From the IMG/VR virus record IMGVR_UViG_3300045242_000144, positions 1 to 36,980 of that record: a DNA stretch of 36,980 nt, one strand, 5' to 3'. The position numbers and the translations under genes are program-made. This stretch comes from a virus. The notes under the pieces are model-generated. The model worked only from the letters and a program-made list of their open reading frames with translations, was not told where the DNA came from and ran no database searches. Below are positions 1 through 36,980 of this stretch, piece by piece; position 1 is the first letter of the stretch, and the number at the start of each line of letters is the position of its first letter.

Positions 1-2
1 GC

Positions 3-122
3 TACAAGGTGGCTAAACTGGCTGCCAAGGTGCTTATGCGTAGCGCTGGAAAAGATGAACGGGATTTTTTTCTCGGGAATTTTTTGGGAATTATATACTT
101 AACTTCCCTGCGTGAACTATGA
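3..122 (+). pseudogene. 3' end of a phage gene cut by cassette A (partial at left edge)
   Basis: An open frame enters from the left edge (YKVAKLAAKVLMRSAGKDER...) and runs into the insertion that starts at 86. If 86-819 and one copy of the 8-bp duplication are removed, the frame ends FFLGNFFGG with a TAA at 835-837, overlapping the start of the next phage gene. With the insertion in place the frame continues as LGIIYLTSLREL and stops at TGA 120-122, which overlaps the methyltransferase ATG at 119. Only a few C-terminal residues were exchanged, so the protein may still work. The fragment is too short for a function call. Confidence 0.6.
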
Positions 123-819
123 AGCCTTACTACCAAGAAAATGGGATCACGATCTACCACGCGGATTGTCGTGACGTTTTGCATTTGATAGGGCGTCCTG
201 AGTGCCTACTGACCGATCCGGTTTGGGGCATTGACGGCGGTTCGGGTCACGATGCGAGGGTCTACAAGAAAGGTATCTACACCTGCGATGGGTGGAGCGA
301 TACGCAAGAGTATGTCCGCGCAGTCGTCGTGCCAGTTATCGAGGCGGCACTCTTGGTCATCAAACGGGGTGCTGTGACACCCGGCATACGTTGCCTAATG
401 GACTACCCAAGGCCCGCTGATATGGGCTGTTTCTATAGCCCTGCCGCTTCTAAGCACGGGCCTTGGGGCTTTACGACGTTCTCACCAATTCTCTATTACG
501 GGAAAGACTATCGAGCCGGTAAGGGCGCAATCGCATCCAGCCGGACGGTTACGGAAGCGGCCGAACCAAATGGACACCCTTGTCCGAAACCGTTGGGAGC
601 TTGGAAGTGGCTGCTCTCAAAAATCAGTCAATCAGGCGAGACGGTTGTTGATCCATTTATGGGTAGCGGAACGACCCTTCGAGCTGCGAAGGACCTTGGC
701 GTCAGCGCAATCGGAATTGAAATCGAGGAACAATATTGCGAGATCGCTGCTCGCCGTATGTCGCAAAGCGTGCTGAATTTTGCCGAAATGGAGGCAGGGA
801 AGTTAAGTATATAATTCCC
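86..819 (+). mobile_element. Cassette A: transposase-less element carrying a DNA methyltransferase
   Basis: This 734-bp element is bounded by a perfect 26-bp inverted repeat (86-111 and 794-819) that starts GGGAATTATATACTTAA. It is flanked by the direct duplication AATTTTTT at 78-85 and 820-827. The 8-bp duplication and the restored phage frame show that it arrived by transposition-like insertion. Nearly all of it is one gene; no transposase is present, so it must be moved by an enzyme supplied in trans if it is still mobile. Families known to make 8-bp duplications and to carry passenger genes include IS1595, but the ends were not matched to any known family. Confidence 0.85.
119..814 (+). 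CDS. DNA N4-cytosine/N6-adenine methyltransferase, cassette A cargo
   Basis: The 231-aa protein has a catalytic motif-IV-like TDPVWG (D33-W36, a variant of DPPY) before the AdoMet-binding motif VVDPFMGSGTT (176-186). This is the order of the beta class of amino-methyltransferases. It is short for the family and has no visible target-recognition domain insert, so its target cannot be predicted. It probably methylates phage or host DNA, for example to protect the phage from restriction. No clear Shine-Dalgarno site precedes the ATG. Its ATG overlaps the TGA of the interrupted phage frame (ATGA at 119-122), which suggests translational coupling. The last residues (GKLSI) and the stop are encoded by the right terminal repeat. 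The unusual DPVW leaves a small chance that it is inactive. Confidence 0.85.
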   Translation: MKPYYQENGITIYHADCRDVLHLIGRPECLLTDPVWGIDGGSGHDARVYKKGIYTCDGWSDTQEYVRAVVVPVIEAALLVIKRGAVTPGIRCLMDYPRPADMGCFYSPAASKHGPWGFTTFSPILYYGKDYRAGKGAIASSRTVTEAAEPNGHPCPKPLGAWKWLLSKISQSGETVVDPFMGSGTTLRAAKDLGVSAIGIEIEEQYCEIAARRMSQSVLNFAEMEAGKLSI

Positions 820-826
820 AATTTTT

Positions 827-1096
827 TTGGCGGATAAGTTACAAAGCAAGAATCCCGACGCGGTCGCGCTAGCGAAGCGCCGAGTCGCGAAGGACTCAAG
901 CACCGACGTATCAGCGGAGGCGGCCGCGCTCGGTTCGTTAGGCGGCAAAGCGCGAGCAGCCAAGCTTACCGACGAAGAGCGTTCCGAAGCGTGCAGCAAA
1001 GCGGCGAAGGCGAGGAAGTATGGGCGAGGTTTCCAGCGAGGGTTCAGGCGCTTCAAACGAAGCTCTGTTTCCCGGAGCTCCAAAGAAGAAAACTAA
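827..1096 (+). CDS. Small basic Lys/Ala-rich protein
   Basis: The 89-aa protein starts with TTG at 827 (MADKLQSKN...). In the pre-insertion sequence this TTG overlapped the end of the previous phage gene by 11 nt. Residues 35-65 contain GGKARAAKLTDEERSEACSK followed by AAKAR, an Ala/Lys-rich helix pattern seen in many small phage and histone-H1-like proteins. The C terminus is strongly basic (GRGFQRGFRRFKRSS) and overlaps the terminase small subunit start by about 77 nt in another frame. A DNA-binding role is plausible but inferred from charge only. The non-ATG start is uncertain. Confidence 0.55.
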   Translation: MADKLQSKNPDAVALAKRRVAKDSSTDVSAEAAALGSLGGKARAAKLTDEERSEACSKAAKARKYGRGFQRGFRRFKRSSVSRSSKEEN

Positions 1097-1655
1097 GCGT
1101 TCGACTTACAAGGTCGAAGAGATAGCGCTTGCTCTCAAACGCTTTCGAGGTCGGGTCACCGCCGCCGCTAATTGGCTCGGCTGTTCTCACACGACCATCG
1201 ACACTTACCTGGCAGAATCCGAAGACCTGCGAAACCTGCGGGCTTCCTTTCGCCGCCGCCGAATCGATTCCGCTACAACCAACATCGAGCGAGCGATCGA
1301 CGATACTTGCTGGGAGTGCAACGGCTCCAAGGAAGTTCCCGTCAAGCCGAAGCACGTTGGCGATCCCGACAAAGCTGCGTGCCCGGTTTGCGACGGCACC
1401 GGTTTCTACGGAGGCAAAGAAGAAAAGATCGATCCGGCCGAGCGCCGTCACTATTCGCTCAAGGTGCTCGAGCGCCAGGCCCGCGACGAAGGTTGGGGCG
1501 AGACTCTTCAGGTGATGGCCCTCCCCGCGGATTTCTTCGACAACCTCACCGAAGATCAAGCCGACGCTCTCGAAGCGCTTCTTAAAAACAAGGTCCCTCT
1601 CCGCGAAGCTTATGCGATGATCGTAGGCGGCCAGGCGAACTCGGGCGGAGGCTGA
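1020..1655 (+). CDS. Terminase small subunit-like protein with zinc-binding insert
   Basis: The 211-aa protein lies directly before the large terminase. Residues 31-72 (KVEEIALALKRFRGRVTAAA, then NWLGCSHTTIDTYL) look like the helix-turn-helix of phage small terminase subunits, which bind the packaging site on phage DNA. The middle holds two CxxC pairs (C97/C100 and C121/C124, the second in CPVCDGTG), similar to a DnaJ-type zinc finger. That insert is unusual for a small terminase subunit. The C terminus has LTEDQADALEALLKNKVPL, probably helical. The start overlaps the upstream gene; a GGCGAGG-like stretch precedes the ATG. The assignment rests on position and the HTH. Confidence 0.7.
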   Translation: MGEVSSEGSGASNEALFPGAPKKKTKRSTYKVEEIALALKRFRGRVTAAANWLGCSHTTIDTYLAESEDLRNLRASFRRRRIDSATTNIERAIDDTCWECNGSKEVPVKPKHVGDPDKAACPVCDGTGFYGGKEEKIDPAERRHYSLKVLERQARDEGWGETLQVMALPADFFDNLTEDQADALEALLKNKVPLREAYAMIVGGQANSGGG

Positions 1656-1658
1656 TGC

Positions 1659-3215
1659 TTGGCGCTCGAGGTAGATTATACCGCCGACACTGCTCTCGCG
1701 ATGTTGCGTCTTCGCCGACGTCGACGCGCGTTGCAGAAGCAGCGCCAGTTTCGCGAGGCTGATTACTTTCATCAGCCCGGCCGGTTCATTCGCGAATGTT
1801 TTGAGTGGCCCGACGGTCAATCGGCTTTTCCCTATCAGTGCAAAGCGGCGGAAACTCTCGAGCGCGAGCATCGCCTCGCCATAAGAGGCCCTCGAGGCGC
1901 GACCAAGACCGCGATCGCGGCGATGGTCTTTCTTTGGTTCGCGATCACCAGGGAAGCCGCCGGCATCGATTGGCAGATCGGCACCACCGCCGGCAGCAAC
2001 CGCCAGTTGATTCAATTCCTCTGGCCCGAAATCAAGAAATGGTCCAAGCGTCTCCGTTGGGATATCATCGGCCGCGCGCCTTTCACCAAAGACGAGCTCA
2101 CAACCAAGCAGCTTACTCTCGAGCACGGTCACGCCTGGGGTGGCGCCTCCAAAGATGCGAATCTTATGGAGGGCCTGCACGCCTCCGAAGTGCTGATGAT
2201 CTTCGACGAAGCCAAGGCGATCGCAAGGGCAATCTTCGAAGCCTGCGAAGGCGCGTTTCAAACCGGCAACGCCTATGTGCTGGCGCTCTCGACGCCCGGC
2301 GACCCGACGGGCTTTTTCTACGATATCCACGCGCGAAGGCGCGAGCTGCGCCATTGGTTCGCGATGCACATCACACTGCGCGACGTTATGGCCGTCGGGC
2401 AGATCAAGCTGAAGGAGGTCAAGCAGCGGCTCGGCACCTGGGGCCGCGCCTCTCGGCTTTTCCAGGGCCAGGTCCTCGGCGAGTTTGTAACCAACGATCC
2501 GCACGCGTTGATTCCGCTCGCCTGGATCGAAGCGGCAAACGAACGTTGGGAAGACTGGCGAGAATCGGGCGACGTGCTTGGATTGATGAACGCCCTGGGT
2601 TCAGACGTGGCGGTGGGCGGCCGGGACAGCGCCTTGATCGCTCCGCGTCACGGAAACCTGATTCCGGAGATCCTGATAGCCAGCTCCGATCCGATGCAAC
2701 TGACCGGTCAGATAGTCGCGATGATCAAGGCCAATCCCGGAGCGACCGCGATCGTAGACACTCAGACGGTGGGCGCCGGCGTCGGCAGTCGGCTGAAAGA
2801 GCTCGATATGAATTACATCGGGTTCAATGGGGGCCGGTCGACGAAGTTCCGGGATCTCCACGAACAGTTTGAATTCGCGGACACGCGATCGGCCGCCTAC
2901 TGGAATGTGCGAGACCTGTTGGATCCGGCGAATGGTTTCGACCTGGCGTTGCCCGTCTTCGAGCCGGACCGAACGTTATCGCTCGCCGGCGACCTGGCTG
3001 CGCCGCGCTGGTGGTATACGAGTGGCGGGAAGATCAAGGTCGAGTCGAAGAATTCCGGCTCAGAAGAAATGGGCGGCGGACTGAGAAAGCGATTGCATCG
3101 CTCGACCGATGCGGGCGATTCGGTTGTTTTGGCGTTCTGGCCTGGCGAGCCCGATGCGCCGCCGGATGAATGGTTCGCCGGCGTCGGAGATGAAATGGTC
3201 AGTGGCCAGGCGTAG
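1659..3215 (+). CDS. terL: Terminase large subunit (ATPase/nuclease)
   Basis: The 518-aa protein is the DNA packaging motor. Walker A is GPRGATKT (77-84), Walker B is LMIFDE (179-184, catalytic E184) and the coupling motif is LSTPG (210-214). The C-terminal RNase H-like nuclease shows the acidic residues D316 (GSDVAVGGRD), D367 (AIVDTQ) and D487 (DAGDS), so both activities look intact. Translation most likely starts at TTG 1659, with GGAGG at 1646-1650 and only 3 nt after the small subunit stop. The TAG stop is the TAG inside a REP-like repeat. The separate placement of terminase and portal by about 5 kb is unusual. Confidence 0.95.
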   Translation: MALEVDYTADTALAMLRLRRRRRALQKQRQFREADYFHQPGRFIRECFEWPDGQSAFPYQCKAAETLEREHRLAIRGPRGATKTAIAAMVFLWFAITREAAGIDWQIGTTAGSNRQLIQFLWPEIKKWSKRLRWDIIGRAPFTKDELTTKQLTLEHGHAWGGASKDANLMEGLHASEVLMIFDEAKAIARAIFEACEGAFQTGNAYVLALSTPGDPTGFFYDIHARRRELRHWFAMHITLRDVMAVGQIKLKEVKQRLGTWGRASRLFQGQVLGEFVTNDPHALIPLAWIEAANERWEDWRESGDVLGLMNALGSDVAVGGRDSALIAPRHGNLIPEILIASSDPMQLTGQIVAMIKANPGATAIVDTQTVGAGVGSRLKELDMNYIGFNGGRSTKFRDLHEQFEFADTRSAAYWNVRDLLDPANGFDLALPVFEPDRTLSLAGDLAAPRWWYTSGGKIKVESKNSGSEEMGGGLRKRLHRSTDAGDSVVLAFWPGEPDAPPDEWFAGVGDEMVSGQA

Positions 3216-3261
3216 GGGCAGCCCTTGTGGCTGCCCCGGCTTGGAGTACAGACGCCTGTAC
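3212..3261 (+). repeat. REP-like palindromic pair 1
   Basis: Type-1 repeat at 3212-3237 (starts GTAGGGGCAGCCCTTGTGG, then CTGCCCC; GC-rich stem with a short loop) is followed by type-2 palindrome GTACAGACGCCTGTAC at 3246-3261. The TAG at 3213-3215 is the stop codon of the terminase gene. A transcript could fold into two adjacent hairpins. Confidence 0.85.
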
Positions 3262-3276
3262 CTCGCAAAAAGCAAC

Positions 3277-3304
3277 TTGACAGGAGGTACGCGATTCGCG
3301 TACC
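3277..3304 (+). promoter_or_regulatory. TTGACA box and 19-bp operator-like palindrome
   Basis: TTGACA at 3277-3282 is followed by GGTACGCGATTCGCGTACC (3286-3304), a palindrome with 9-bp arms around a single T. The arrangement resembles the self-regulated promoter of HigB/HigA-type toxin-antitoxin operons. The bases just after it (3312-3345) resemble the first codons of a higB toxin with frame breaks, so this may be a relic. It could still bind a repressor or drive transcription of the radical-SAM gene. Confidence 0.5.
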
Positions 3305-3404
3305 CTCTCAGATTATGAAATCAAACAGCGAGGCTAAACGATTTTGAGTCGACAGCGAATAGCACCAACGCCGCCGGCGTTGAGTCAGATGCCGCGCGGA
3401 CCGA

Positions 3405-3485
3405 ACGGTCGGCGCGTTTGGTTTTGTCTTTGTGGCAGGGAACACAGAGAGTTTGGTAAGGTTGAACGTCGTGATCGTGCGCGCG
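3405..3485 (-). pseudogene. Relic of an HNH endonuclease
   Basis: On the - strand the translation RAHDHDVQPYQTLCVPCHKD followed by KTKRADR is the C-terminal core pattern of McrA-type HNH nucleases (Asn/Gln-Leu-Gln-x-Leu-Cys-x-x-Cys-His-x-x-Lys-Thr). The rest of the domain is not visible in this or a nearby frame, so only a fragment remains. HNH genes often sit beside terminase genes in phages. The fragment underlies the region just before the radical-SAM start, which argues against starting that gene further upstream. Confidence 0.45.
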
Positions 3486-3502
3486 GCCTTCTGGAGATCG
3501 AA

Positions 3503-4279
3503 TTGAAACTGGACGTAATCTATCAACCGAAAGGCGAAGCCGGCGAATATGCGCCCTGGGCAACCAATCACTACGACGGCTGCGGTCACGGCTGTGTTTA
3601 CTGCTACGTGCCCGGCGTCCGGCATATCACTCGAGAAAGCTTCGACGCCGGCGCGGATGAACGAAAGCTCTATCTCGAACGTCTCGACAAGGACCTCGCC
3701 AAGCTTCGAGCGGCGGGCTTCGCCGAACAGGTTATGCTCAGCTTCACGACCGATCCCTACAATCCGGACGATGTTGAAATCGGGCTCACTCGGAAAGTGC
3801 TCAAGCGCCTCGGCCGCGCCGGGCTCGGGTTCTGCACGCTCACAAAAGGCGGCCGCCGAGCTTATCGGGACATCGATCTCTTCCGCCGCGATCGCGACGC
3901 CTTCGCTTCCAGCCTCACGCTTCTCGACCCGGATGCTTCGCTGAAATGGGAGCGCAAGGCCGCGACTCCGGACGAGCGGATCAAGACGCTCCGAACCTTT
4001 CACGACGCCGGCATATTCACCTGGGTTTCTCTCGAGCCGGTAATCGATCCCGGTACTACTCTTGAAATAATTCGGCGGACGGCGCCGTTTGTCGATCTCT
4101 ACAAGGTCGGGCAAATCAATTATTCCAAACTGACGAAGCTGATCAACTGGCGGGAGTTTACCCTTCGATCGATCGATCTGCTTAACGGGCTCGGCAAGGC
4201 TCATTACATCAAGGCGGACTTGCAGCAATATCTTCCGCCCGGCTATCCGAACCCATTGAGGGTTCCACAGCACCATTGA
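3503..4279 (+). CDS. Radical SAM protein, SplB/photolyase-like group
   Basis: From TTG 3503 the protein is 258 aa. It has the radical-SAM cluster motif CGHGCVYC (C27, C31, C34), which ligates a 4Fe-4S cluster that cleaves S-adenosylmethionine. The surrounding pattern (NHYDGCGHGCVYCYVPG, later LSFTTDPYNPDD and WVSLEPVIDP) resembles proteins annotated as DNA repair photolyase or spore photoproduct lyase (COG1533). The true substrate is unknown. I chose TTG 3503 because GGAG lies 6 nt before it and because sequence further upstream is HNH and toxin relic. An in-frame start at 3344 would add 53 residues of relic-derived sequence. The gene sits between terminase and ParB, an unusual place for an enzyme. 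Confidence 0.75.
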   Translation: MKLDVIYQPKGEAGEYAPWATNHYDGCGHGCVYCYVPGVRHITRESFDAGADERKLYLERLDKDLAKLRAAGFAEQVMLSFTTDPYNPDDVEIGLTRKVLKRLGRAGLGFCTLTKGGRRAYRDIDLFRRDRDAFASSLTLLDPDASLKWERKAATPDERIKTLRTFHDAGIFTWVSLEPVIDPGTTLEIIRRTAPFVDLYKVGQINYSKLTKLINWREFTLRSIDLLNGLGKAHYIKADLQQYLPPGYPNPLRVPQHH

Positions 4280-4286
4280 AGGGAAA

Positions 4287-4535
4287 ATGCTCAAAGAACA
4301 GATCATTGTGCTTCACGAGTACCTTGTTGATTTGATTTCCCTATCGGATTTGACGGAGGCGGCGGAGAGCGAAGCCCTTGAAGTTCTGGGGCTCTGCGAA
4401 ATGCTGCTGTTCTACGGCAATTGGCCCCTTGCCTTGGGCAAACCGCAGGTAGTCTTGCCAGGGAAGGCAGGAACCGCCCGCATATCTCGGGCTCGCGCCG
4501 CGAGCTCCAACGAAAGGAGCGGAAATGATTTTTGA
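4287..4535 (+). CDS. Small hypothetical protein
   Basis: The 82-aa protein (MLKEQIIVLHEYLVDLISLS...) starts 7 nt after the radical-SAM stop with AAGGGA before the ATG. The first 50 residues are acidic, probably helical (EAAESEALEVLGLCEMLLFY). The C-terminal 30 residues are basic and look different in composition. Codons for GKPQVVL are part of a 23-bp DNA repeat shared in the same frame with the ParB-like gene. It overlaps the start of the next small gene by 11 nt. No family is recognised. Confidence 0.6.
   Translation: MLKEQIIVLHEYLVDLISLSDLTEAAESEALEVLGLCEMLLFYGNWPLALGKPQVVLPGKAGTARISRARAASSNERSGNDF
4436..4458 (+). repeat. 23-bp direct repeat (second copy 5429-5451)
   Basis: The identical 23-bp stretch starting GGGCAAACCGCAGGTAG lies here and at 5429-5451. 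Both copies encode GKPQVVL in the same reading frame of two different genes. A match this long is unlikely by chance in the window and suggests copying or past recombination. Confidence 0.8.
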
Positions 4536-4641
4536 TCGCATCAAAAAGCTGATCGGGAACTATCAGGCTCGGACCGGTGAGCCCCCTGGCTGCCTATATT
4601 TGGGAATTATATACTTTAGTGCTCCGAAGGAGGACCAATGA
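4525..4641 (+). pseudogene. 5' part of a phage gene split by cassette B
   Basis: A strong AAAGGAG site precedes ATG 4525. The frame reads MIFDRIKKLIGNYQARTGEP, PGCLYL, then enters the insertion at 4602 (GIIYFSAPKEDQ) and stops at TGA 4639-4641. Joining 4525-4601 to 4981-5173 restores a single 89-aa gene (...GCLYLGELEMEEVVREF...). Its role is not recognised. The N-terminal part ends at a TGA overlapping the cargo ATG (ATGA). Confidence 0.8.
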
Positions 4642-4972
4642 TGACGGAAGCGGAGTTTCTAGCACTGGGAATTAAACGATTTGGCCCCGATCCCATGAAG
4701 TTTAAGTTTGTGTGCCCTTCATGCGGCCACGTCGCGAGCGCCGAAGACTACAAGGCCGCAGGTGCTCCAGCAACCGCCGTTGGTTTCTCTTGTATTGGGC
4801 GATGGTTGCCCGGTAACTGGAGCGTCAATACGTTCCAGAAGGTCGGTGGTCCTTGCGACTACGCGGGTGGCGGCTTAATCAGGTTGAATCCGGTAGTCCT
4901 CTCCGACCGGAAACAGGCTTATTTTGCTTTTGCAGAGGCGGCTCCTTCGGAGCACTAAAGTATATGATTCCC
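4602..4972 (+). mobile_element. Cassette B: transposase-less element carrying a VVA0879-type gene
   Basis: This 371-bp element has 31-bp inverted ends (4602-4632 and 4942-4972) with one mismatch and the direct duplication CTATATTT at 4594-4601 and 4973-4980. The outer core GGGAATTATATACTT equals that of cassette A, but the inner half (TAGTGCTCCGAAGGAG) is different and specific to this copy. The mismatch lies at position 7 of the right end: it changes ATA to ATG and creates a start codon at 4964 in frame with the second half of the split phage gene. It contains only one gene. Confidence 0.9.
4638..4958 (+). CDS. VVA0879 family phage protein, cassette B cargo
   Basis: The 106-aa protein has FVCPSCGHVAS near residue 25, then AAGAPATAVGFSCIGRWLPG and PCDYAGGGLIRLNPV. 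These are hallmarks of the VVA0879 family, a zinc-binding family of unknown function common in phages. Two cysteines of CPSC and those of SCIG and PCDY probably bind metal. The AAGGAGG site before ATG 4638 lies at the inner edge of the left terminal repeat. The ATG overlaps the TGA of the broken phage frame, and the TAA stop lies in the right terminal repeat. Confidence 0.8.
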   Translation: MMTEAEFLALGIKRFGPDPMKFKFVCPSCGHVASAEDYKAAGAPATAVGFSCIGRWLPGNWSVNTFQKVGGPCDYAGGGLIRLNPVVLSDRKQAYFAFAEAAPSEH

Positions 4973-5173
4973 CTATATTTAGGGGAACTCGAAATGGAAG
5001 AGGTGGTTCGCGAGTTCTCACTTTCGCGGGCGGCGTTGGCTGAGTTGGCTGAGACATCAGGAGGCGAGGGCCACAATAAAATCTTCGGGGTCAGGTTCTA
5101 TGAGGTTAAGTCCGAAAGCCATCTGAACCTATCGCCCTTCAGTGCGGAAGTCGTGCGGAAACGGTTCCCCTGA
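4964..5173 (+). pseudogene. 3' part of the phage gene split by cassette B
   Basis: The frame from ATG 4964 reads MIPLYLGELEMEEVVREFSL and continues to a TGA at 5171-5173 (69 aa). The ATG is inside the right terminal repeat of the cassette, 5 nt after the cargo stop, and a GGAG lies 11 nt upstream. It could therefore be translated as a separate C-terminal polypeptide. The motif IFGVRFYEVKSESHL is preserved, so the reading frame has not decayed. The function is unknown. Confidence 0.6.
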
Positions 5174-5216
5174 GCGATGCGGTACTTCACGAGATGGGCT
5201 TGAAGGGGGAGCAAAA

Positions 5217-7169
5217 ATGAAACCACAAAAAGCAATTGTCCGGTCTCAGGCTCTCGCCGAAATGATCGCGCTGGACCAGATCGAGCCCGTTTCAATCGGC
5301 CAGCCAAGAACCGTTTTCAACGAGGCCAAGCTCCAGGAGCTCGCCGACTCGATCAAACAACGCGGCGTGATCGAGCCGATAATCTTGAGGCCTCGGGTCT
5401 CCGCTTTCGGCGTGATGCAAAACACGAAGGGCAAACCGCAGGTAGTCTTGCTATCGAACGAAGCCGATAACCTCGTCACCTGGACCGGTCCGGTCTGCAA
5501 GACTCCCGCCGAGGCCGAGAAGATCGTCGCCGACAAGAACGCCGCGCTTTCTCCCTACGAGCTGGTGGCCGGCGAGCGGCGCTGGCGAGCTGCGAAGATT
5601 GCCGACCTGAAAGAAATTCCCTCGATGGTCCGCAGTCTCGACAACAAAGCGGTGCTCGAAATGCAGTTGATCGAGAACCTCCAGCGCGAGGACCTGTCGC
5701 CGCTCGAGGAAGCGCGTCACTTCAAGCGGCTGATTGCCGAGCACAATCACACGGCCGAGAGCCTGGCGGCGAAACTGGGCAAGTCGCGTTCGCACGTCTA
5801 TGGAATGCTCAAGCTGTGCGAGCTGCCTCCTATCGCGGCCGAAGCGCTGTCGAAGGGCGTTATCTCCAAGTCCCACGCCGAGCTGATAGCCGGGGTTCCC
5901 AATGAAAAAATGCGGGACCTGTTCGCGAGGGATATTCTCGACGAACTTGAGGAAGACGAGACGCTCGAGGATTTTGAGAAAAACGAATGGGCAGAAGTAA
6001 TGTCGCTGCGGTCGGCGAAACGGCATCGCGAATCGACTTTTATGGTGCAGCTCAAGGGTGCTTCGTTCTCGAAGACGGACGCTACATTGGTCCCGGCGGC
6101 CGGGGCGTGCACAGTTTGTCCGAAGATGACGGGCAACGATCGAGACCTGTTCCCGGACGGCCGCGCCGATATGTGCACCGATCCCGAGTGCTTCAGTGCA
6201 AAGAAGACTGCCAATGCGGAGCGCATTGCTTCCTTGGCCCAGGGGCAAGGCCTTAAGGTACTCGGTGCGAAGGAAAGCGCCGCGCTGTTTCCCTACGGCG
6301 AAAGGCTGAAGCACGGGAGCGCCTATGTGGATCTGGCAGAGAACTGTGTCGACGACAAAAAACACCGCTCGTTCAAACAGCTTCTCGGGGATAAGGTCAA
6401 ACCGGTGATTGCCTTCGATCGCGAGGGAAAGCCGCACAGGATAGTCAGGAAGGAGGATGCGGCGCCGGTCCTGAAAGAGAAGGGAATCGTCGATCGCAAC
6501 GTCAGTCCAAACCGCGCCCACGATACTTATGCGGAGCAGGAAAAACGCCGACGATTGAATGAGCGAATCAGGCTGCTGGCAATCGAGAAGGCACTCAAGC
6601 TTTTGGCAAAAAAGAAATGGGAAAAGGTCGATCTCGTATTTCTCGTACCGGCGCTTGCCGGAGCCCCAAGGGACCTCCGCCAGCTCTTCGAAGTCCGCGG
6701 TGTCAAACACGTCTATGATGCGGATATCACCAGGCTGTCGGCGGGCATCAAGACCGACGAAGAGGCCATAACGCTGGCGATGCAGGTTATTGTAGGCTCC
6801 GGGCTGGGTCAATGGGCGCGTGGTTATTCGCACTCGCTCTCGGCCAAGAAGAACTCCGAGAAGGTGCTCAAGCTCGCAAAGATCACTCTTCCCTCACTTG
6901 TCCTCCAGGCGAAGCGCGAGCTGGCGAAGCCTAAAAAGGTTCCCGTCTCAAAGAAGAAAACCGAGTCTCCGAAGGTTGATCTCCATCAAGCCGATTGTGT
7001 AAGGTTTCTGACGGCGATTCCGGTAGGCGACCCGAACTTCAAAAAGCACCTCGAACACGCATCCATCGAGGCGTTGAAAGTCGCGGTTCGCGTGAAGACT
7101 GTCACAAAGACGAACAAGGCCCGTCTCGAGAGTCGCCTCCGAGCGCTCCAAAAGGAGTCCACGAAGTGA
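5217..7169 (+). CDS. Long ParB/Spo0J-like protein
   Basis: The 650-aa protein starts at ATG 5217 behind AAGGGGGAG. Residues 18-140 form a ParB N domain, with GERRWR (119-124) and ENLQRE (153-158). An insertion of about 45 residues separates the VIEPIILRP strand from YELVAGERRW. A helix-turn-helix follows at about 178-200 (ESLAAKLGKSRSHVYGML). A later cysteine cluster (CTVCPKMTGN, MCTDPECF) is typical of long ParB-like proteins of phages and plasmids. The C-terminal 300 residues are Lys-rich with no recognised fold. ParB N domains bind and hydrolyse CTP, or act as nucleases in some relatives; the function here (partition, transcription or DNA processing) is open. No parA is seen. Its stop overlaps the next start (GTGA). 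Confidence 0.8.
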   Translation: MKPQKAIVRSQALAEMIALDQIEPVSIGQPRTVFNEAKLQELADSIKQRGVIEPIILRPRVSAFGVMQNTKGKPQVVLLSNEADNLVTWTGPVCKTPAEAEKIVADKNAALSPYELVAGERRWRAAKIADLKEIPSMVRSLDNKAVLEMQLIENLQREDLSPLEEARHFKRLIAEHNHTAESLAAKLGKSRSHVYGMLKLCELPPIAAEALSKGVISKSHAELIAGVPNEKMRDLFARDILDELEEDETLEDFEKNEWAEVMSLRSAKRHRESTFMVQLKGASFSKTDATLVPAAGACTVCPKMTGNDRDLFPDGRADMCTDPECFSAKKTANAERIASLAQGQGLKVLGAKESAALFPYGERLKHGSAYVDLAENCVDDKKHRSFKQLLGDKVKPVIAFDREGKPHRIVRKEDAAPVLKEKGIVDRNVSPNRAHDTYAEQEKRRRLNERIRLLAIEKALKLLAKKKWEKVDLVFLVPALAGAPRDLRQLFEVRGVKHVYDADITRLSAGIKTDEEAITLAMQVIVGSGLGQWARGYSHSLSAKKNSEKVLKLAKITLPSLVLQAKRELAKPKKVPVSKKKTESPKVDLHQADCVRFLTAIPVGDPNFKKHLEHASIEALKVAVRVKTVTKTNKARLESRLRALQKESTK

Positions 7170-7336
7170 TCACGATCTATGGTGGCATCTTGTTGTTGGC
7201 GGGTTCCGCTATTGCTTATGCTGGCTTCTCTGCCCTCTATTACGGACGGCACAGACTCTCCCCGCACGTCGGTTTTGGCTATATCGTGATTTCTTGTTTG
7301 ACCGTCTGGCATGGATTCCACCTTATTCTAAAATAA
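7166..7336 (+). CDS. Small membrane protein
   Basis: GTG 7166 overlaps the ParB-like stop and follows AAAAGGAG by a good distance. The 56-aa product has two hydrophobic stretches: ITIYGGILLLAGSAIAYAGF and VGFGYIVISCLTVWHGF. It is probably an inner-membrane protein with two helices. Its TAA stop lies directly before the terminal repeat of cassette C, so the original C terminus may have been different. No family is recognised. Confidence 0.6.
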   Translation: MITIYGGILLLAGSAIAYAGFSALYYGRHRLSPHVGFGYIVISCLTVWHGFHLILK

Positions 7337-8226
7337 GGGAATTATATATTTAACTGCCCCGGTACAAATTTATCGCATGAAAAGCAAAGTGGCAACTGGC
7401 GGTCATCGGGTTTTCGCCCAGAGCATCTGGGCGGACGTTCGCCCCATCCCCAATCATGTCCCGCATCGCGCACTTCGCATTCAAGTGCCTTTATGTGTTC
7501 GTACGCCGGGCGAGTCTGCGGCCAGAGCTTTAGTTCTTCTAGCTCGCCGGGCTTGGCGAATGCTCCGCATAGGCATTCGCCGCTCTTGTGGATTAGATCA
7601 ACGACTATGTTTCGCTTCATTCCGGTGTGAACGATGAGGTCAGTTGTATCGAGCTTCGACCAATCATGAATCGGATTAATCCAGATAAAGCGGCCCTGAA
7701 CCTCAATCGGCTTCACGTTGCCCATTCGCCGCGTGGATTCCTGCGACCGACACCCCGCGACAAGCATAATTCGCTGTTTAGATTTGCCCCGCGCCGAGGC
7801 TCCGAACATTCGAGCGAGACGGGCCAGAGCTCGCTCTTTCAGATTTATGTACATATAGACGTGGCCCGCCGGTCCGGGAAACCCATTCTGCAAAACAAGT
7901 TCCCGGTAGACTTTTGGATCAAGTTCGCCTTTGGAGTTGATGTTCTCAGCGGCTTTAAGCTCCAAAAGATCAACGTTCTGTTCAACGCAGGTGTTGTAGA
8001 CGTGTTCGCGGGTAGCTTCTACCCCGATGCCGGTATGAATATGCACGCCTCTTGTCATCAAGCCTGTTTCTTTAGTCACGAACAGCGCAGATTGACTGTC
8101 GTGTCCGCCAGAAAACAGCCCGAAGACGGCAATAGGCTGGAACTCCTGCACGGCGGCAATGATGCGGTCTCTAGCCGTCTCGATTCTTTCTTTAACGTTT
8201 ATTGGAGTCATCTTTGATCTTCACTA
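7337..8226 (-). mobile_element. Cassette C: probable third member, one end missing
   Basis: GGGAATTATATATTTAACTG at 7337-7356 matches the cassette A end over its first 12 bases and nearly all of the core. As in A and B, the cargo stop (TAA, - strand) lies inside this end. No inverted partner and no copy of the adjacent TAAAATAA was found between 8211 and 8480, so the 5' end has been lost or changed. The right boundary given here is only the last base before an unrelated-looking short segment. Confidence 0.55.
7342..8211 (-). CDS. PAPS reductase/DndC-like PP-loop protein, cassette C cargo
   Basis: The 289-aa protein has the PP-loop SGGHDS (34-39) of the adenine nucleotide alpha-hydrolase family that includes phosphoadenosine phosphosulfate reductase and DndC. 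Further family-like traits are the HTGIGVEATREHV segment and the Cys-containing AGCRSQES and SGECLCGAF. The C terminus holds more cysteines (RCSGRK, LCFSCDKF) that could bind metal. Phage members of this family are common; they may act in sulfur metabolism or DNA modification, which the sequence does not decide. It is transcribed against its neighbours. Its last residues (GQLNI) are encoded by the cassette end. Confidence 0.75.
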   Translation of the reverse strand: MTPINVKERIETARDRIIAAVQEFQPIAVFGLFSGGHDSQSALFVTKETGLMTRGVHIHTGIGVEATREHVYNTCVEQNVDLLELKAAENINSKGELDPKVYRELVLQNGFPGPAGHVYMYINLKERALARLARMFGASARGKSKQRIMLVAGCRSQESTRRMGNVKPIEVQGRFIWINPIHDWSKLDTTDLIVHTGMKRNIVVDLIHKSGECLCGAFAKPGELEELKLWPQTRPAYEHIKALECEVRDAGHDWGWGERPPRCSGRKPDDRQLPLCFSCDKFVPGQLNI

Positions 8227-8325
8227 TGGCAAACATTCTGAGCAAAGACAAGACGGGTCGGCGACTTTATCTAGAAAACTTAAACTTTTCTTTCGATGGC
8301 CGCTAAATCCCTGAATTAGCGGCCA
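8227..8325 (+). other. Possible insertion-sequence remnant with 10-bp inverted repeat
   Basis: ATG 8227 opens a 26-codon frame starting MANILSKDK, similar to the N terminus of some transposase proteins (IS1 InsA or IS21 IstA types), then loses similarity. Just after it lies the inverted repeat TGGCCGCTAA (8297-8306) / TTAGCGGCCA (8316-8325) with a 9-nt loop and no T run. It may be a deleted insertion sequence whose arrival removed the end of cassette C. This is a weak inference. Confidence 0.25.
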
Positions 8326-8388
8326 CTTACGCCGCTCTATGCGTAGCGCTCGACAAGCCCCCGACACAACCCCTTGTATATTTTTTTG

Positions 8389-8419
8389 TTGACAGCACTA
8401 TCCGGTTTCGTGGTATAAG
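8389..8419 (+). promoter_or_regulatory. Probable sigma70-type promoter of the head genes
   Basis: TTGACA (8389-8394) is followed by TATAAG (8414-8419) with a 19-bp spacer, or by GGTATA with a 17-bp spacer. An AT-rich stretch (TTGTATATTTTTTTG) precedes it. It lies about 65 bp before the portal gene, after a - strand gene and a remnant, where a new promoter is needed. The spacing of the best -10 is longer than ideal. Confidence 0.5.
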
Positions 8420-8440
8420 CTGAGTTGCATCTCGTAATTT

Positions 8441-8460
8441 GGCTCCCGAACCGGGGAGCC
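8441..8460 (+). promoter_or_regulatory. Hairpin in the portal leader
   Basis: GGCTCCC and GGGAGCC form a 7-bp stem around CGAACC in the untranslated leader, 22 nt before the portal ATG. No U run follows, so it is not a terminator. The ATG has no clear Shine-Dalgarno site, so this stem may influence translation or RNA stability. Confidence 0.35.
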
Positions 8461-8482
8461 GGGCCGTCCGTAAAACCGAAAA

Positions 8483-9925
8483 ATGAACGACTCCCACGAC
8501 GGATACCTCTACAACGGCGAGCAAGGGCTGATCGGCCGCGGCGTTTCGCGTGCCTTCGAAGCCGCCGCCCGGACCGGCTTCGGTCAAAGGGTCCTGGTCC
8601 GAGCTGCTCAGACCGCCTCCAAGATCCCGTTCTTTGCCAGCCGCGTTTCAAGCTGGCTTGCGAGGCTGGGGTTTGCGGCCTACGGCGGAATTCCGGGGAT
8701 GGATTCCGACTACAGCCGCTGGGCGATATCGCTTGGCGATGTTCGGATGAGCTCGATTTTTCAGGCCGGGTTGCGCTGGGGTTCGCTCGGTCTGCAGTCG
8801 GCGCGACTGATGCTGGTCAAGCTCGATCTGCAGAATCAGCAAACCGAAGTCGCTCAAAGCGATGCGCTCGATCTGCTGGCTCGGCCGAATCCCTATTGCA
8901 CCTGGACGCAGTTTATGGCCGCGTTCACTTTCAATTGGCTCGCGAAAAGCGCGGTTTATATTCGCAAAGTCCGCGACGAAGCCAGTGACGATCGCCGGGT
9001 TATCGAGCTGTGGCCGGAGCCCTACTGGAAAGCGCGGCCGGTGGTGAAGCAGGGGCCGGGCGGCGTCTGGGATTCCTATATCAGCTACTACGAAGTCGAG
9101 CGCAACGGCAAGTGGTATCGGGTCGACGTTCAGGATATGATCGTTTTCCGCGACGGCTTTGATCCCGAGACCCGCGAGGGCAACAACTGGCTTGCGGCGC
9201 TGGCGCCCGAGCTGTTCACCGATCGCGCGGTCGGCAAGCACTGCGCCAAGATGGTCGACAACGGTTTCCTGCCCGCGGTGGTCCTGGGTCTGGGCGACAA
9301 GAAGAATCCCGTCTCGCCCCAGCAGGTCGCGGCGCTGCAGAACCTGTTCGATAGCAAATCTCGCAAGGGCGATTCAAACGTGTGGGTCACCAGCGGCAAC
9401 GTTTCGAAAGCGGTCTTGAACTCGGATTACTCGATCGACGCGCTGGTGAAGCTCCGACAGACGCCCGAGCAGCGTTTCGCCGCCGGGATGGGCGTCTCGG
9501 TTATATCGCTGCTGTTTGGGGCGGGCGTGGAAGTCAGCACTTATTCAAACGTCGAGCAGTATATGCGCCGCGATTACCGGAGCTGGGTCGTTCCGATCCA
9601 TACGATCATCGCCGAGACTCTTACCCTCGAGTTGCTTCCCGAGTTTCAACAGGTGAAGCAGGCGAACGGCAAGCGATTCCAGTTCGCGTTTGATTACAGC
9701 CAGGTGCCGGAAATGCAGCGCGACAAGCAGACGGACTCCGAATGGGTTGCGGCGCTATGGAACGACGATCTTCTGACTCAGGCCGAGGCGCGGGAGCAGA
9801 TGGGTTATCCGGGAGGCGAGCAGAAGTACAAGTCCGAGATTGTAGGTTCGAAAGCGGCGGAGCCTTCGCCGATAGGAATGCCGGGAGTGCCGGTGCCCGC
9901 GACCGAGCCGGAGACCATTCAATGA
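8483..9925 (+). CDS. Portal protein, HK97 family
   Basis: The 480-aa protein fits the HK97/SPP1-type phage portal family in length and pattern: LDLLARPNPYCTWTQFMAA, the segment DMIVFRDGFDPETREGNN, WVTSGNVSKAVLNSDYSIDA, and the C-terminal helix region with LTQAEAREQMGYP. Twelve copies form the ring at the capsid vertex through which DNA enters and leaves. The first 60 residues are not clearly part of the conserved domain. The last 25 are Pro/Glu-rich. No strong ribosome site precedes ATG 8483. Its stop overlaps the next gene start (ATGA). Confidence 0.9.
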   Translation: MNDSHDGYLYNGEQGLIGRGVSRAFEAAARTGFGQRVLVRAAQTASKIPFFASRVSSWLARLGFAAYGGIPGMDSDYSRWAISLGDVRMSSIFQAGLRWGSLGLQSARLMLVKLDLQNQQTEVAQSDALDLLARPNPYCTWTQFMAAFTFNWLAKSAVYIRKVRDEASDDRRVIELWPEPYWKARPVVKQGPGGVWDSYISYYEVERNGKWYRVDVQDMIVFRDGFDPETREGNNWLAALAPELFTDRAVGKHCAKMVDNGFLPAVVLGLGDKKNPVSPQQVAALQNLFDSKSRKGDSNVWVTSGNVSKAVLNSDYSIDALVKLRQTPEQRFAAGMGVSVISLLFGAGVEVSTYSNVEQYMRRDYRSWVVPIHTIIAETLTLELLPEFQQVKQANGKRFQFAFDYSQVPEMQRDKQTDSEWVAALWNDDLLTQAEAREQMGYPGGEQKYKSEIVGSKAAEPSPIGMPGVPVPATEPETIQ

Positions 9926-35905: not shown

Positions 35906-36143
35906 GCATCGAGGATCGGTGGCCGGGCGGCGAATGGTGCCCGACAAGTATCTGGCGCTGTTCGCGTGGATGCTGCTGTTGACGATCTACGTCGGGTTTA
36001 CGATCTTCGGCAGGGAGTCGAAGGTGATAGAAGGTATGCTTGCAACCTCTTTCGGCTCACTAATTATGGCTTTGCAGGCAGGAATCAAACGAATGGAGGG
36101 AGCGCCTTACAGGGGCAAGGAACGAAGGGAAGAGAACCTCTAG
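35889..36143 (+). CDS. Holin candidate
   Basis: The 84-aa protein from ATG 35889 (or GTG/ATG near 35934) has two transmembrane segments (LALFAWMLLLTIYVGFTIFG and GMLATSFGSLIMALQAGIKR) and a basic tail. The size, two helices and neighbouring coiled-coil membrane protein agree with class II holins. No endolysin was found in the window, so it is only a candidate. Confidence 0.5.
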   Translation: MDSTNEHRGSVAGRRMVPDKYLALFAWMLLLTIYVGFTIFGRESKVIEGMLATSFGSLIMALQAGIKRMEGAPYRGKERREENL

Positions 36144-36158
36144 TACAGGCGCGTGTAC
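36143..36158 (+). repeat. Type-2 palindrome, imperfect copy
   Basis: GTACAGGCGCGTGTAC lies 5 nt before the next ATG and starts right at the stop codon of the gene before. One pair of the palindrome is mismatched. Confidence 0.7.
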
Positions 36159-36163
36159 TTGTA

Positions 36164-36980
36164 ATGACGACCGATAAGAGCGATAAGATCGACGATCGCG
36201 ACAGCTCGCGACGGTATTTCTCCCAGGTGCCGAATATTGTTCACGACTTGGGATTGTCGCCGGTGGAGTTCCGTCTCTATGGCGCGTTGAAGCGTGCGGC
36301 CTGGGGCGAGGGTTCGACTTGCGAGCGATCGACAAGGGAGATTGCGGCTGAGACCGGGTTGAGTGTAGGCGCGGTGAGTGCGGCTAAGGCGCGGCTCCAG
36401 GAGCCACGGCCGGGTTCCTGCCAAGGGCCGGCGCCCTGTGGGCTCGAGGGGAAGGCTCTTATCGAAATCGCCTCGGAGGCGGGCGCCGGGAGTCCTCGGC
36501 ACCTGATCACGCTTGTGGATATCTGGCCGGAAAACGTGGCTCGCTATTCGGAACCTCAGCGTTCACGTGGTGAACCTCAGCGTTCACGTGGTGAACCTCA
36601 GCGTTCACGTGGTGAACCTCAGCGTTCACGTGGTGAACCTCAGCGTTCACGTGGTGAACCTCCTTCTTATAAGGAAGAAGAAAGAATACAAGACGGGAAA
36701 GATGGGAAAGACACACGCAATACCGCGCGTGTGCGCGAGCCCGATGCTCAGTCCCGATTCGATCTGCAGACTTGTATCGCGTTCGCCGAGACGCTTCCTA
36801 CAATCGATAAGCCGGGCGGCTACGGCACGGTCATCCATCGTTCCGGGGCTCAAGATGTTTTGATAGAGGACTGGCTTGAGCAAACACGGCGCCGCGCTTC
36901 GGAGAATCCGGGGCCGATGCCTGGCACTCGCGATGCGGAGATGCTTGAGAGGTTTCTGACGGCTGCAGCTTCGAGGGTCA
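36164..36980 (+). CDS. Replication initiator-like protein with internal origin repeats (partial)
   Basis: ATG 36164 opens a frame that is still open at the right edge (272 codons). Residues 18-80 (RYFSQVPNIVHDLGLSPVEF, RLYGALKRAAWGEGSTCERS, TREIAAETGLSVGAVSAAKA) form a winged helix of the type found in phage replication and replisome-organizer proteins. Residues 130-164 are five exact copies of EPQRSRG, encoded by five exact 21-bp repeats. The C-terminal part (RFDLQTCIAFAETLPTIDKP; TRDAEMLERFLTAAASRV) is a helical domain that could bind a helicase loader. The layout equals that of lambda O. No clear ribosome site lies before the ATG. This gene may begin a replication module after the late genes. 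Confidence 0.7.
   Translation, partial: MTTDKSDKIDDRDSSRRYFSQVPNIVHDLGLSPVEFRLYGALKRAAWGEGSTCERSTREIAAETGLSVGAVSAAKARLQEPRPGSCQGPAPCGLEGKALIEIASEAGAGSPRHLITLVDIWPENVARYSEPQRSRGEPQRSRGEPQRSRGEPQRSRGEPQRSRGEPPSYKEEERIQDGKDGKDTRNTARVREPDAQSRFDLQTCIAFAETLPTIDKPGGYGTVIHRSGAQDVLIEDWLEQTRRRASENPGPMPGTRDAEMLERFLTAAASRV
36551..36661 (+). repeat. Five 21-bp tandem repeats, probable replication origin iterons
   Basis: Units begin at 36551, 36572, 36593, 36614 and 36635 and are identical (GAACCTCAGCG then TTCACGTGGT), followed by a partial sixth (GAACCT). Each unit with the next forms the palindrome GTTCACGTGGTGAAC, so there are five. A purine-rich, less GC-rich stretch follows (36662-36712). Iterons with dyad symmetry inside the initiator gene, next to a weaker-melting stretch, are the structure of lambdoid origins. 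Confidence 0.7.

Follow-up and report, generated by a model that had tools for sequence, protein, structure and literature searches.

Transposase-less one-gene cassettes with IS1595-family ends in an environmental phage record and in other viral contigs

The window analysed here is the whole 36,980-base virus record IMGVR_UViG_3300045242_000144 of IMG/VR, in which two single-gene insertions, cassette A (positions 86–819) and cassette B (4602–4972), are bounded by the same type of inverted end. A and B are very probably non-autonomous one-gene mobile insertion cassettes with ends of the IS1595 family of insertion sequences (IS); an IS1595-type transposase would move them in trans. Judged from their sequence, the ends of A and B are those of IS1595-family elements and not of a new kind: in longer elements with the same ends all five open reading frames (ORFs) tested matched the IS1595 transposase model NF033547, with E values from 3e-56 to 2e-63, and autonomous copies carrying the transposase together with passenger genes occur in the same contig collection. 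The transposase gene with the same ends that the earlier note on this DNA had proposed to look for was therefore found. An 8 bp target duplication and inverted ends starting with GG are defining for the IS1595 family. Both features are present in A and B, although neither cassette is an autonomous IS1595 element, as neither contains a DDE transposase.

Cassettes A and B and the sequence of their ends

The inverted ends and the perfect 8 bp duplications that the earlier note had described around A and B are seen in the sequence, as are their unrelated cargo, a methylase of PF01555 in A and a VVA0879 protein of NF041591 in B, and the lack of a transposase in either; no IS1595 transposase was found anywhere in the window record. 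The core GGGAATTATATACTT lies at 86–100 (+), 805–819 (−), 4602–4616 (+), 4958–4972 (−, one mismatch) and 7337–7351 (+, one mismatch), giving five matches at up to three mismatches; 100 shuffled sequences had 0.23 matches on average and never more than 2. The inverted repeats of A (26 bp) and B (31 bp, one mismatch) extend past this common 15 bp core. The methyltransferase of A terminates in ...AGKLSI, with its TAA stop codon falling within the right end. At each cassette an upstream frame continues into the left end and terminates over the start of the cargo, with TGA 120–122 overlapping ATG 119–121 in A and TGA 4639–4641 overlapping ATG 4638–4640 in B. The claim that deletion of each cassette restores a phage gene holds for B, the joined flanks of which form a single 89-residue frame (MIFDRIKKLIG...RKRFP), but not for A. 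When the flanks of A are joined, a plausible upstream frame (YKVAKLAAKVLMRSAGKDERDFFLGNFF), chosen by eye as the coding frame, stops two residues beyond the junction, with the gene downstream in a different frame, so that A appears to lie at the extreme 3' terminus of a gene.

The consensus of 230 ends from 115 elements is GGGAATTATATACTTGACTCCC, the conservation of which drops after position 22. At positions 16–22 the two ends of one element agree with each other more often than shuffled pairs do (0.876 versus 0.755; largest of 2000 shuffles 0.785), and a small within-element agreement is still present at positions 23–30 (0.338 versus 0.280; largest shuffle 0.325), whereas no such effect was found at positions 1–15 or 31–45. 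The inner part of the end thus co-varies within elements, which would fit recognition by transposase subtypes.

Census, mobility and transposase supply

Elements were collected with fixed end patterns from eight scans of viral contigs, one scan of genome contigs and 16 fetched regions; L-numbers denote the collected loci, and elements identical in sequence were counted once. The 15-base core was found in at least 119 stretches of viral contigs, many of them with a second, inverted copy and an 8 bp duplication, and an end pattern of 20 specified bases was found in at least 120 stretches of viral contigs and in 87 of genome contigs (among 80 listed of these 87, 28 came from one Acidobacteria bin and Sphingopyxis indica). 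In total, 153 elements of different sequence were collected, with an exact duplication in 148 and a one-mismatch duplication in five. For the end pairs of an earlier stage of the collection, the same duplication test shifted outward by 20, 30 or 40 bp gave no match, compared with 101 elements at the true position. With a transposase called at 100 bits or more, the 126 viral elements comprise 52 with a transposase, two with a remnant and 72 with none, and the 27 genome-contig elements comprise 20, one and six, respectively. Among the 88 viral elements of the first stage, those without a transposase are 170–1477 bp long and those with one are 1308–3232 bp long, and the duplications are 83% A+T, compared with 44% A+T in the flanks. 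By a mechanical criterion, an ORF of at least 35 residues is present in 71 of the 72 viral transposase-less elements, the exception being the 170 bp element L297. The transposase-less share was 35 of 74 in viral contigs and six of 27 in genome contigs (p = 0.038), a comparison of three viral scans with one genome scan that is not like for like; the later figures for viruses and genomes add end variants that were searched in viruses only.

Several arrangements of the elements were noted during collection. In L027 a cassette (7127–7602, duplication CTTGAATA) is nested in the end of another element (7107–8583). The phage contig of L311 (1678–10446) and L315 carries a transposase-bearing element, an end of which has leader-2-like text as in the cassettes described below, together with at least two cassettes and a further end pair without a matching duplication. 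Directly 3' of the IS1595 transposase, a lysine-rich ORF of about 46–66 residues (..LDAIADVVLAYRPKPK..KKRKK.. in several) is found in L048, L082, L247, L300 and others. At loci L163–L241 (WH2.bin123 and Sphingopyxis indica) many genome contigs stop at a distance of about 70–125 bp from an end of IS1595 type, and it is therefore probable that these assemblies are broken by a repeated element.

In the proposed mechanism an IS1595-type transposase made elsewhere, by a co-infecting phage, a prophage or the host, would recognize the ends of about 22 bp and insert the cassette at an A+T-rich 8 bp target, duplicating the target. In keeping with such a supply, the IS1595 transposase (PF12762) was found in five of 36 and three of 26 virus records searched (61 with a transposase-less cassette and the remnant-bearing L068, with the record of L297 left out) and was absent from the window record. 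Four pairs of homologous transposase-less cassettes (homology over at least 70% of the cassette length) lie between different duplications, namely L256/L260 and L314/L395 (each 91% identical in nucleotides), L330/L377 (80%) and L373/L407 (78%), with no blastn similarity in the 300 bp flanks of any of the four. The members of a fifth pair, L097/L357, both carry TnpB (68% amino-acid identity) and have different duplications. The L257 cassette interrupts a gene, the relatives of which in L096 and L118 continue across the junction without an insert; the DNA is 67–69% identical with 27–33 bp past the junction, and the protein is 51 and 64% identical over a longer stretch. The cargo at this site (L257:2249–2959) is a C5 methylase, and the interrupted gene itself resembles, by eye, a C5 methylase (motif ENVRG). 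In L097 (2157–3334) and L357 (2001–3178) TnpB, an RNA-guided nuclease of IS200/IS605 elements, stands alone within IS1595-type ends and 8 bp duplications.

The cassettes could instead be dead internal-deletion products of passenger-bearing IS1595 elements, no longer moving and with the cargo as an accidental leftover. Such an origin would fit L068, where an autonomous element (409–1968) and a shorter one with a transposase remnant (5049–5784) occupy the same phage, and it would fit the finding that autonomous viral elements do carry methylases, in five of 37 passengers, together with one PAPS-reductase match; the 37 are drawn from 38 viral passengers of at least 90 residues, with L286 left out as near-identical to L083. 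However, it is unlikely as a general account, since cassettes that lack a transposase and are homologous to each other are found at unrelated sites, each with a duplication of its own, only two of the 74 viral elements lacking a full transposase have a remnant, the cargo frame mostly fits the ends and, as described below, leaders are common to cassettes with unrelated genes, a pattern that deletion of one parent does not give. The earlier note had named, as one outcome that would speak against it, ends of a known IS with a decayed transposase and no repeated capture of cargo. The ends are indeed those of a known IS, whereas decay without repeated capture is contradicted by the 72 of 126 viral elements with no transposase match, compared with two remnants, and by the repeated capture itself.

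Cassette architecture, leaders and cargo

The gene content was analysed in a first set of 45 viral cassettes with an ORF and in a later set of 26 cassettes from later scans. The gene starts 33–63 bp from one end in 33 of 45 first-set and 17 of 26 later-set cassettes, and stops within 35 bp of the far end in 36 of 45 and 19 of 26. Ten of the 45 have their stop codon 5 bp from the end, and eight of these ten proteins end in LSI, SSI or LTI. A promoter-like pair, defined as a −35 inside the end and a −10 matching at least four of six positions, was found at the transposase-side end of 38 of 60 transposase-bearing elements and at the opposite end of one of 60, compared with one of the 45 first-set cassettes. 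Over 2.5 kb, the cassettes are co-directional with the bulk of the flanking coding sequence in 36 of 45 cases (p = 6.6e-5) in the first set and in 22 of 26 (p = 5e-4) in the later set, compared with 22 of 40 and five of 12 for transposase-bearing elements; pooled, the contrast is 58 of 71 versus 27 of 52 (p = 0.0007). Over 1 kb, the corresponding cassette counts are 35 of 45 (p = 2.5e-4) and 20 of 26. Promoterless and co-directional, the cassettes appear to have been selected for reading by phage transcription. The gene of a cassette, largely without the promoter of the autonomous elements, would be read by phage transcription running through it, and this would explain why the cassettes mostly point along the neighbouring phage genes. 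Translational coupling was considered as a special trait of the cassettes and rejected, as the best upstream frames of 50 viral cassettes stop between −12 and +4 of the cargo start in eight of 21 cases, compared with 15 of 42 for other frames.

A near-identical stretch of 41 bp precedes the start codon in L256 and L260 (D12 methylase), in L069 and L276 (N6/N4) and in L307 (another N6/N4), and had no match in GenBank phages. In a second cassette of L069 a related leader precedes a Mom-type gene; this DNA-modification gene (L069:11961–12588; PF25680, E = 2.4e-18) thus lies on the same phage contig as the methylase cassette. A second leader, recognized by a short pattern match as AAAGGAGAT-like text before the start codon, is present in 12 cassettes, most of them with unrelated genes. 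In 16 pairs of cassettes leader positions 23–42 are 85–95% identical while the cargoes have no blastp match at 1e-3; the maximum in 2450 null comparisons was 0.75. Conversely, the same families stand behind different leaders, such as the C5 methylase in L257 and L310 and the D12 methylase in L256 and L310. The cargo would therefore be exchangeable, with near-identical leaders and ends placed around unrelated genes.

L069 and L276 are 96% alike over the outer 92 bp and 100% over 78 bp, with only 37% amino-acid identity between their cargoes, and likeness outside combined with diverged cargo points to recombination inside the shell. Phages are mosaic, and the combination of differing methylase cores with outer stretches that are almost the same on the 5' and 3' sides looks like recombination inside cassettes, so that homologous recombination between phages might be how they spread. 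As the sole means of spread, with no transposition, such recombination is extremely improbable, since each element has its own 8 bp duplication and homologous cassettes lack similarity in their flanks, which is the mark of transposition. Recombination may nevertheless be a route of cargo exchange inside a shell.

In the first set 19 of 45 cargoes match DNA-modification families: N6_N4 (nine), Dam PF05869 (three), D12 (three), C5 (two), MT-A70 (one) and Mom (one). The 45 proteins consist of 41 together with those of L314, L320, L323 and L325, which gave no match. As a control, up to three of the longest flanking ORFs per element were taken (127 of 285 candidate ORFs), and at most three of the 127 belong to DNA modification among the best 25 of 43 families (Fisher p = 2.5e-10). 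L256 and L260 represent one cassette type, and without the duplicate the count is 18 of 44 (p = 8e-10). The matches in the later set are L335 (N6_N4) and L339, L343 and L351 (Dam), of which L339 is just below the Pfam cut-off. The bias towards DNA modification is thus seen in both sets, but it is weaker in the later one and may be linked to the end subtype. Given this excess of DNA methyltransferases from several families and of a Mom-type modifier, one likely use of the cassettes would be to protect phage DNA against restriction.

Two other explanations bear on this cargo. Selfish elements similar to miniature inverted-repeat transposable elements (MITEs) might pick up genes at random, with no benefit to the phage, as the many short cargo proteins without a family match and the four of 26 in the later set would suggest. 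This is rather unlikely given the 19 of 45 in the first set compared with three of 127 flanking ORFs, spread over six modification families, and given that the genes are fitted to the ends and that the cassettes are co-directional with phage genes, whereas transposase-bearing elements are not. Alternatively, the methylases might serve the element by methylating its ends and tuning transposition. Dam methylation tunes the transposition of IS10 and IS50, and the consensus end contains GACTC at positions 16–20, which fits GANTC, the site of CcrM-type methylases. However, five Pfam methylase families and a Mom-type modifier are unlikely to have one common site, only 63% of the ends have G at position 16 and only 68% have C at position 20, and the ends of A contain no GANTC, all of which makes this explanation very improbable.

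Several observations weigh against mobile cassettes that are moved in trans, read by phage transcription and biased towards DNA modification. No empty site was found for A or B, in that no homologue of the joined frames was detected at E = 0.01 among 29 terminase-related loci (25–45% identity) and the other loci collected by then. The shorter element of L068 (5049–5784) is simply a transposase element that has lost an internal part. The 54 of 62 virus records in which no IS1595 transposase was found may be fragments, so that this absence is weak evidence for action in trans. The gene start lies outside the 33–63 bp range in 12 of 45 first-set cassettes, and the cargo frames of some cassettes (L067 and L312) look broken. 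The first-set contrast in orientation with transposase-bearing elements has p = 0.18 over 1 kb (0.0018 over 2.5 kb), and orientation by the nearest gene alone gives 25 of 40 (p = 0.15). The flanking ORFs of the cargo control were called mechanically, so that some may not be genes, and include the PAPS-reductase-like gene of the third element of the window; if all 18 families beyond the best 25 of 43 were methylases, the comparison with 18 of 44 would give p = 0.0016. In the later set only four of 26 cargoes belong to DNA modification (p = 0.016 versus the flanks and, below the first set, p = 0.034), and all four are among the 11 cassettes of one scan, with none among 15 in loci with the ATAGTT end variant.

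One transposase-less element of this ATAGTT-end set, L402 (10460–11885), has a first frame with a methylase-like start (MKPYSIHHGK...DPPYG...) that is broken further on and a second frame of 341 residues that extends to the far end.

We tentatively suggest, as an attractive possibility and not as the expected outcome, that environmental phages draw on a pool of standardized cassettes, each consisting of an end, a leader with ribosome-binding site and start codon, an exchangeable gene and an end that can supply the stop codon, which would depend on IS1595 transposase in trans and on phage transcription, in an integron-like system of swaps that are largely anti-restriction. The earlier note had proposed a modular system that inserts accessory genes into a phage genome; a transposase-less family with common ends, unrelated cargo and reuse of the shell agrees with this, whereas the ends are corrected to those of the known IS1595 family.

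Relation to known systems and further features of the window

A 2009 paper reportedly defined the IS1595 family. The cassettes share with it the ends, the 8 bp duplication and, in the longer elements, the NF033547 transposase; they differ in that A, B and 70 further viral elements have no transposase, those of the first set being mostly much shorter and without the transposase-side promoter. The family is known to include a member with a passenger regulator gene, ISNha5, according to PMC11891212.

Mobile insertion cassettes (MICs) carry a passenger gene, and modular IS231–MIC231 elements are said to have been described by De Palmenaer in 2004. A and B likewise have the ends of a known IS, a passenger gene, a target duplication and no transposase. 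The phage cassettes differ from MICs in having IS1595 and not IS231 ends, in residing in phages, in being promoterless and co-directional with phage genes, in reusing a near-identical leader with unrelated cargo and, in the first set, in their DNA-modification bias. A passage of PMC3129680 describes MICs, for example MIC231 with IS231 ends, as IS-derived elements without a transposase of their own that can be activated by the cognate transposase. Transporter IS (tIS) are IS with passenger genes, and an excerpt of PMC11891212 mentions a methyltransferase passenger in IS220 of the IS1380 family. The tIS keep their transposase, whereas the phage cassettes do not.

Integron gene cassettes are compact units of a single gene, which have no promoter and depend on transcription from outside. 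The likeness to them is in function only, as the inverted ends and 8 bp duplications of the phage cassettes indicate transposition and not an attC/integrase system (attC sites were not searched for). The elements are not short non-coding MITEs either, since 71 of 72 hold an ORF and the cargoes of A and B have family-level matches. As extra single genes among phage genes, the cassettes resemble phage morons. Classical morons, however, have their own promoter and terminator and no transposon ends; the only promoter type examined here, that of the transposase elements, occurs in one of 45 cassettes.

No description of IS1595-ended cassettes in phages was found in the open-licence literature, judged by titles and the beginnings of abstracts, and the phage-borne family is apparently both widespread and undescribed. 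The features that appear to be new are the occurrence in phages, the fit of promoterless cassettes to phage transcription, the reuse of a leader with unrelated genes and the DNA-modification bias. Among 50,697 GenBank phage records none matched the DNA of the autonomous element L082 or of the cassette L256, and the transposase of L072 matched two unannotated GenBank phage records at 37–38% identity (E limit 1e-30). This near-absence of the tested elements from cultivated phages may have caused the family to be overlooked. Such cassettes would offer a traceable route, with ends and duplications as footprints, by which a phage acquires individual accessory genes other than by homologous recombination; a simple signature makes the capture of cargo readable from sequence, and transposition becomes linked to likely counter-restriction genes.

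For the window itself, 1–8400 had no near DNA match in GenBank phages, and the exact 26 bp end of A had no match in the viral contigs scanned. Relatives of the A methylase found by protein (nine loci, 33–57% identity) included none with paired ends at up to four mismatches. Relatives of the VVA0879 protein are present in 27 GenBank phage records, all at less than 60% identity. The coordinates of A, B and the third element are collected in Table 1.

Table 1. Features of cassettes A and B and of the third element in the 36,980-base window.
Feature	Position	Strand	Basis
3' part of upstream phage frame, running into left end of A	3..122	+	translation
Target-site duplication of A, left copy AATTTTTT	78..85	.	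sequence
Left end of A, 26 bp inverted repeat, first 15 bp = common core	86..111	+	sequence
Cargo of A, N6/N4 DNA methyltransferase, 231 aa	119..814	+	PF01555 E 1.6e-18; phrog_67 E 3.4e-38
Right end of A	794..819	-	sequence
Target-site duplication of A, right copy AATTTTTT	820..827	.	sequence
5' part of small phage gene interrupted by B	4525..4601	+	joined flanks
Target-site duplication of B, left copy CTATATTT	4594..4601	.	sequence
Left end of B, 31 bp inverted repeat, 1 mismatch	4602..4632	+	sequence
Cargo of B, VVA0879 family CxxC protein, 106 aa	4638..4958	+	NF041591 E 7.3e-23
Right end of B	4942..4972	-	sequence
Target-site duplication of B, right copy CTATATTT	4973..4980	.	sequence
3' part of gene interrupted by B	4981..5173	+	joined flanks
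Lone end of third element, 3' of its gene	7337..7358	+	sequence
PAPS-reductase-like gene, 289 aa	7342..8211	-	phrog_424 E 3.5e-16

A third end at 7337 had also been reported to adjoin a PAPS-reductase-like gene, and both the core match and the gene were recovered, although the match of the gene falls below the Pfam cut-off. Its protein terminates in ...QLNI, with the stop codon lying within the lone end, and the region of its start (ATGACTCC) is similar to the inner part of an end. No match was found for a partner end. With no partner and the stop codon of a minus-strand ORF inside the end, the third element looks like one that has lost its other end. Compared with the passengers and cargoes of the set, the gene matched L264 alone, weakly (25% over 75 residues, E = 0.013), and none of them by phmmer.

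Elsewhere in the window a terminase large subunit (phrog_2, E = 4.7e-25) and a portal protein (phrog_2662, E = 1.1e-20) are encoded. A ParB-like protein with a long C-terminal part is encoded in this phage genome at 5142–7169 (PF02195, E = 4.5e-25), and a PQRSRGE stretch is repeated in the ORF at 35966–36979 (window 36500–36720), with the reverse-strand counterpart EVHHVNA.

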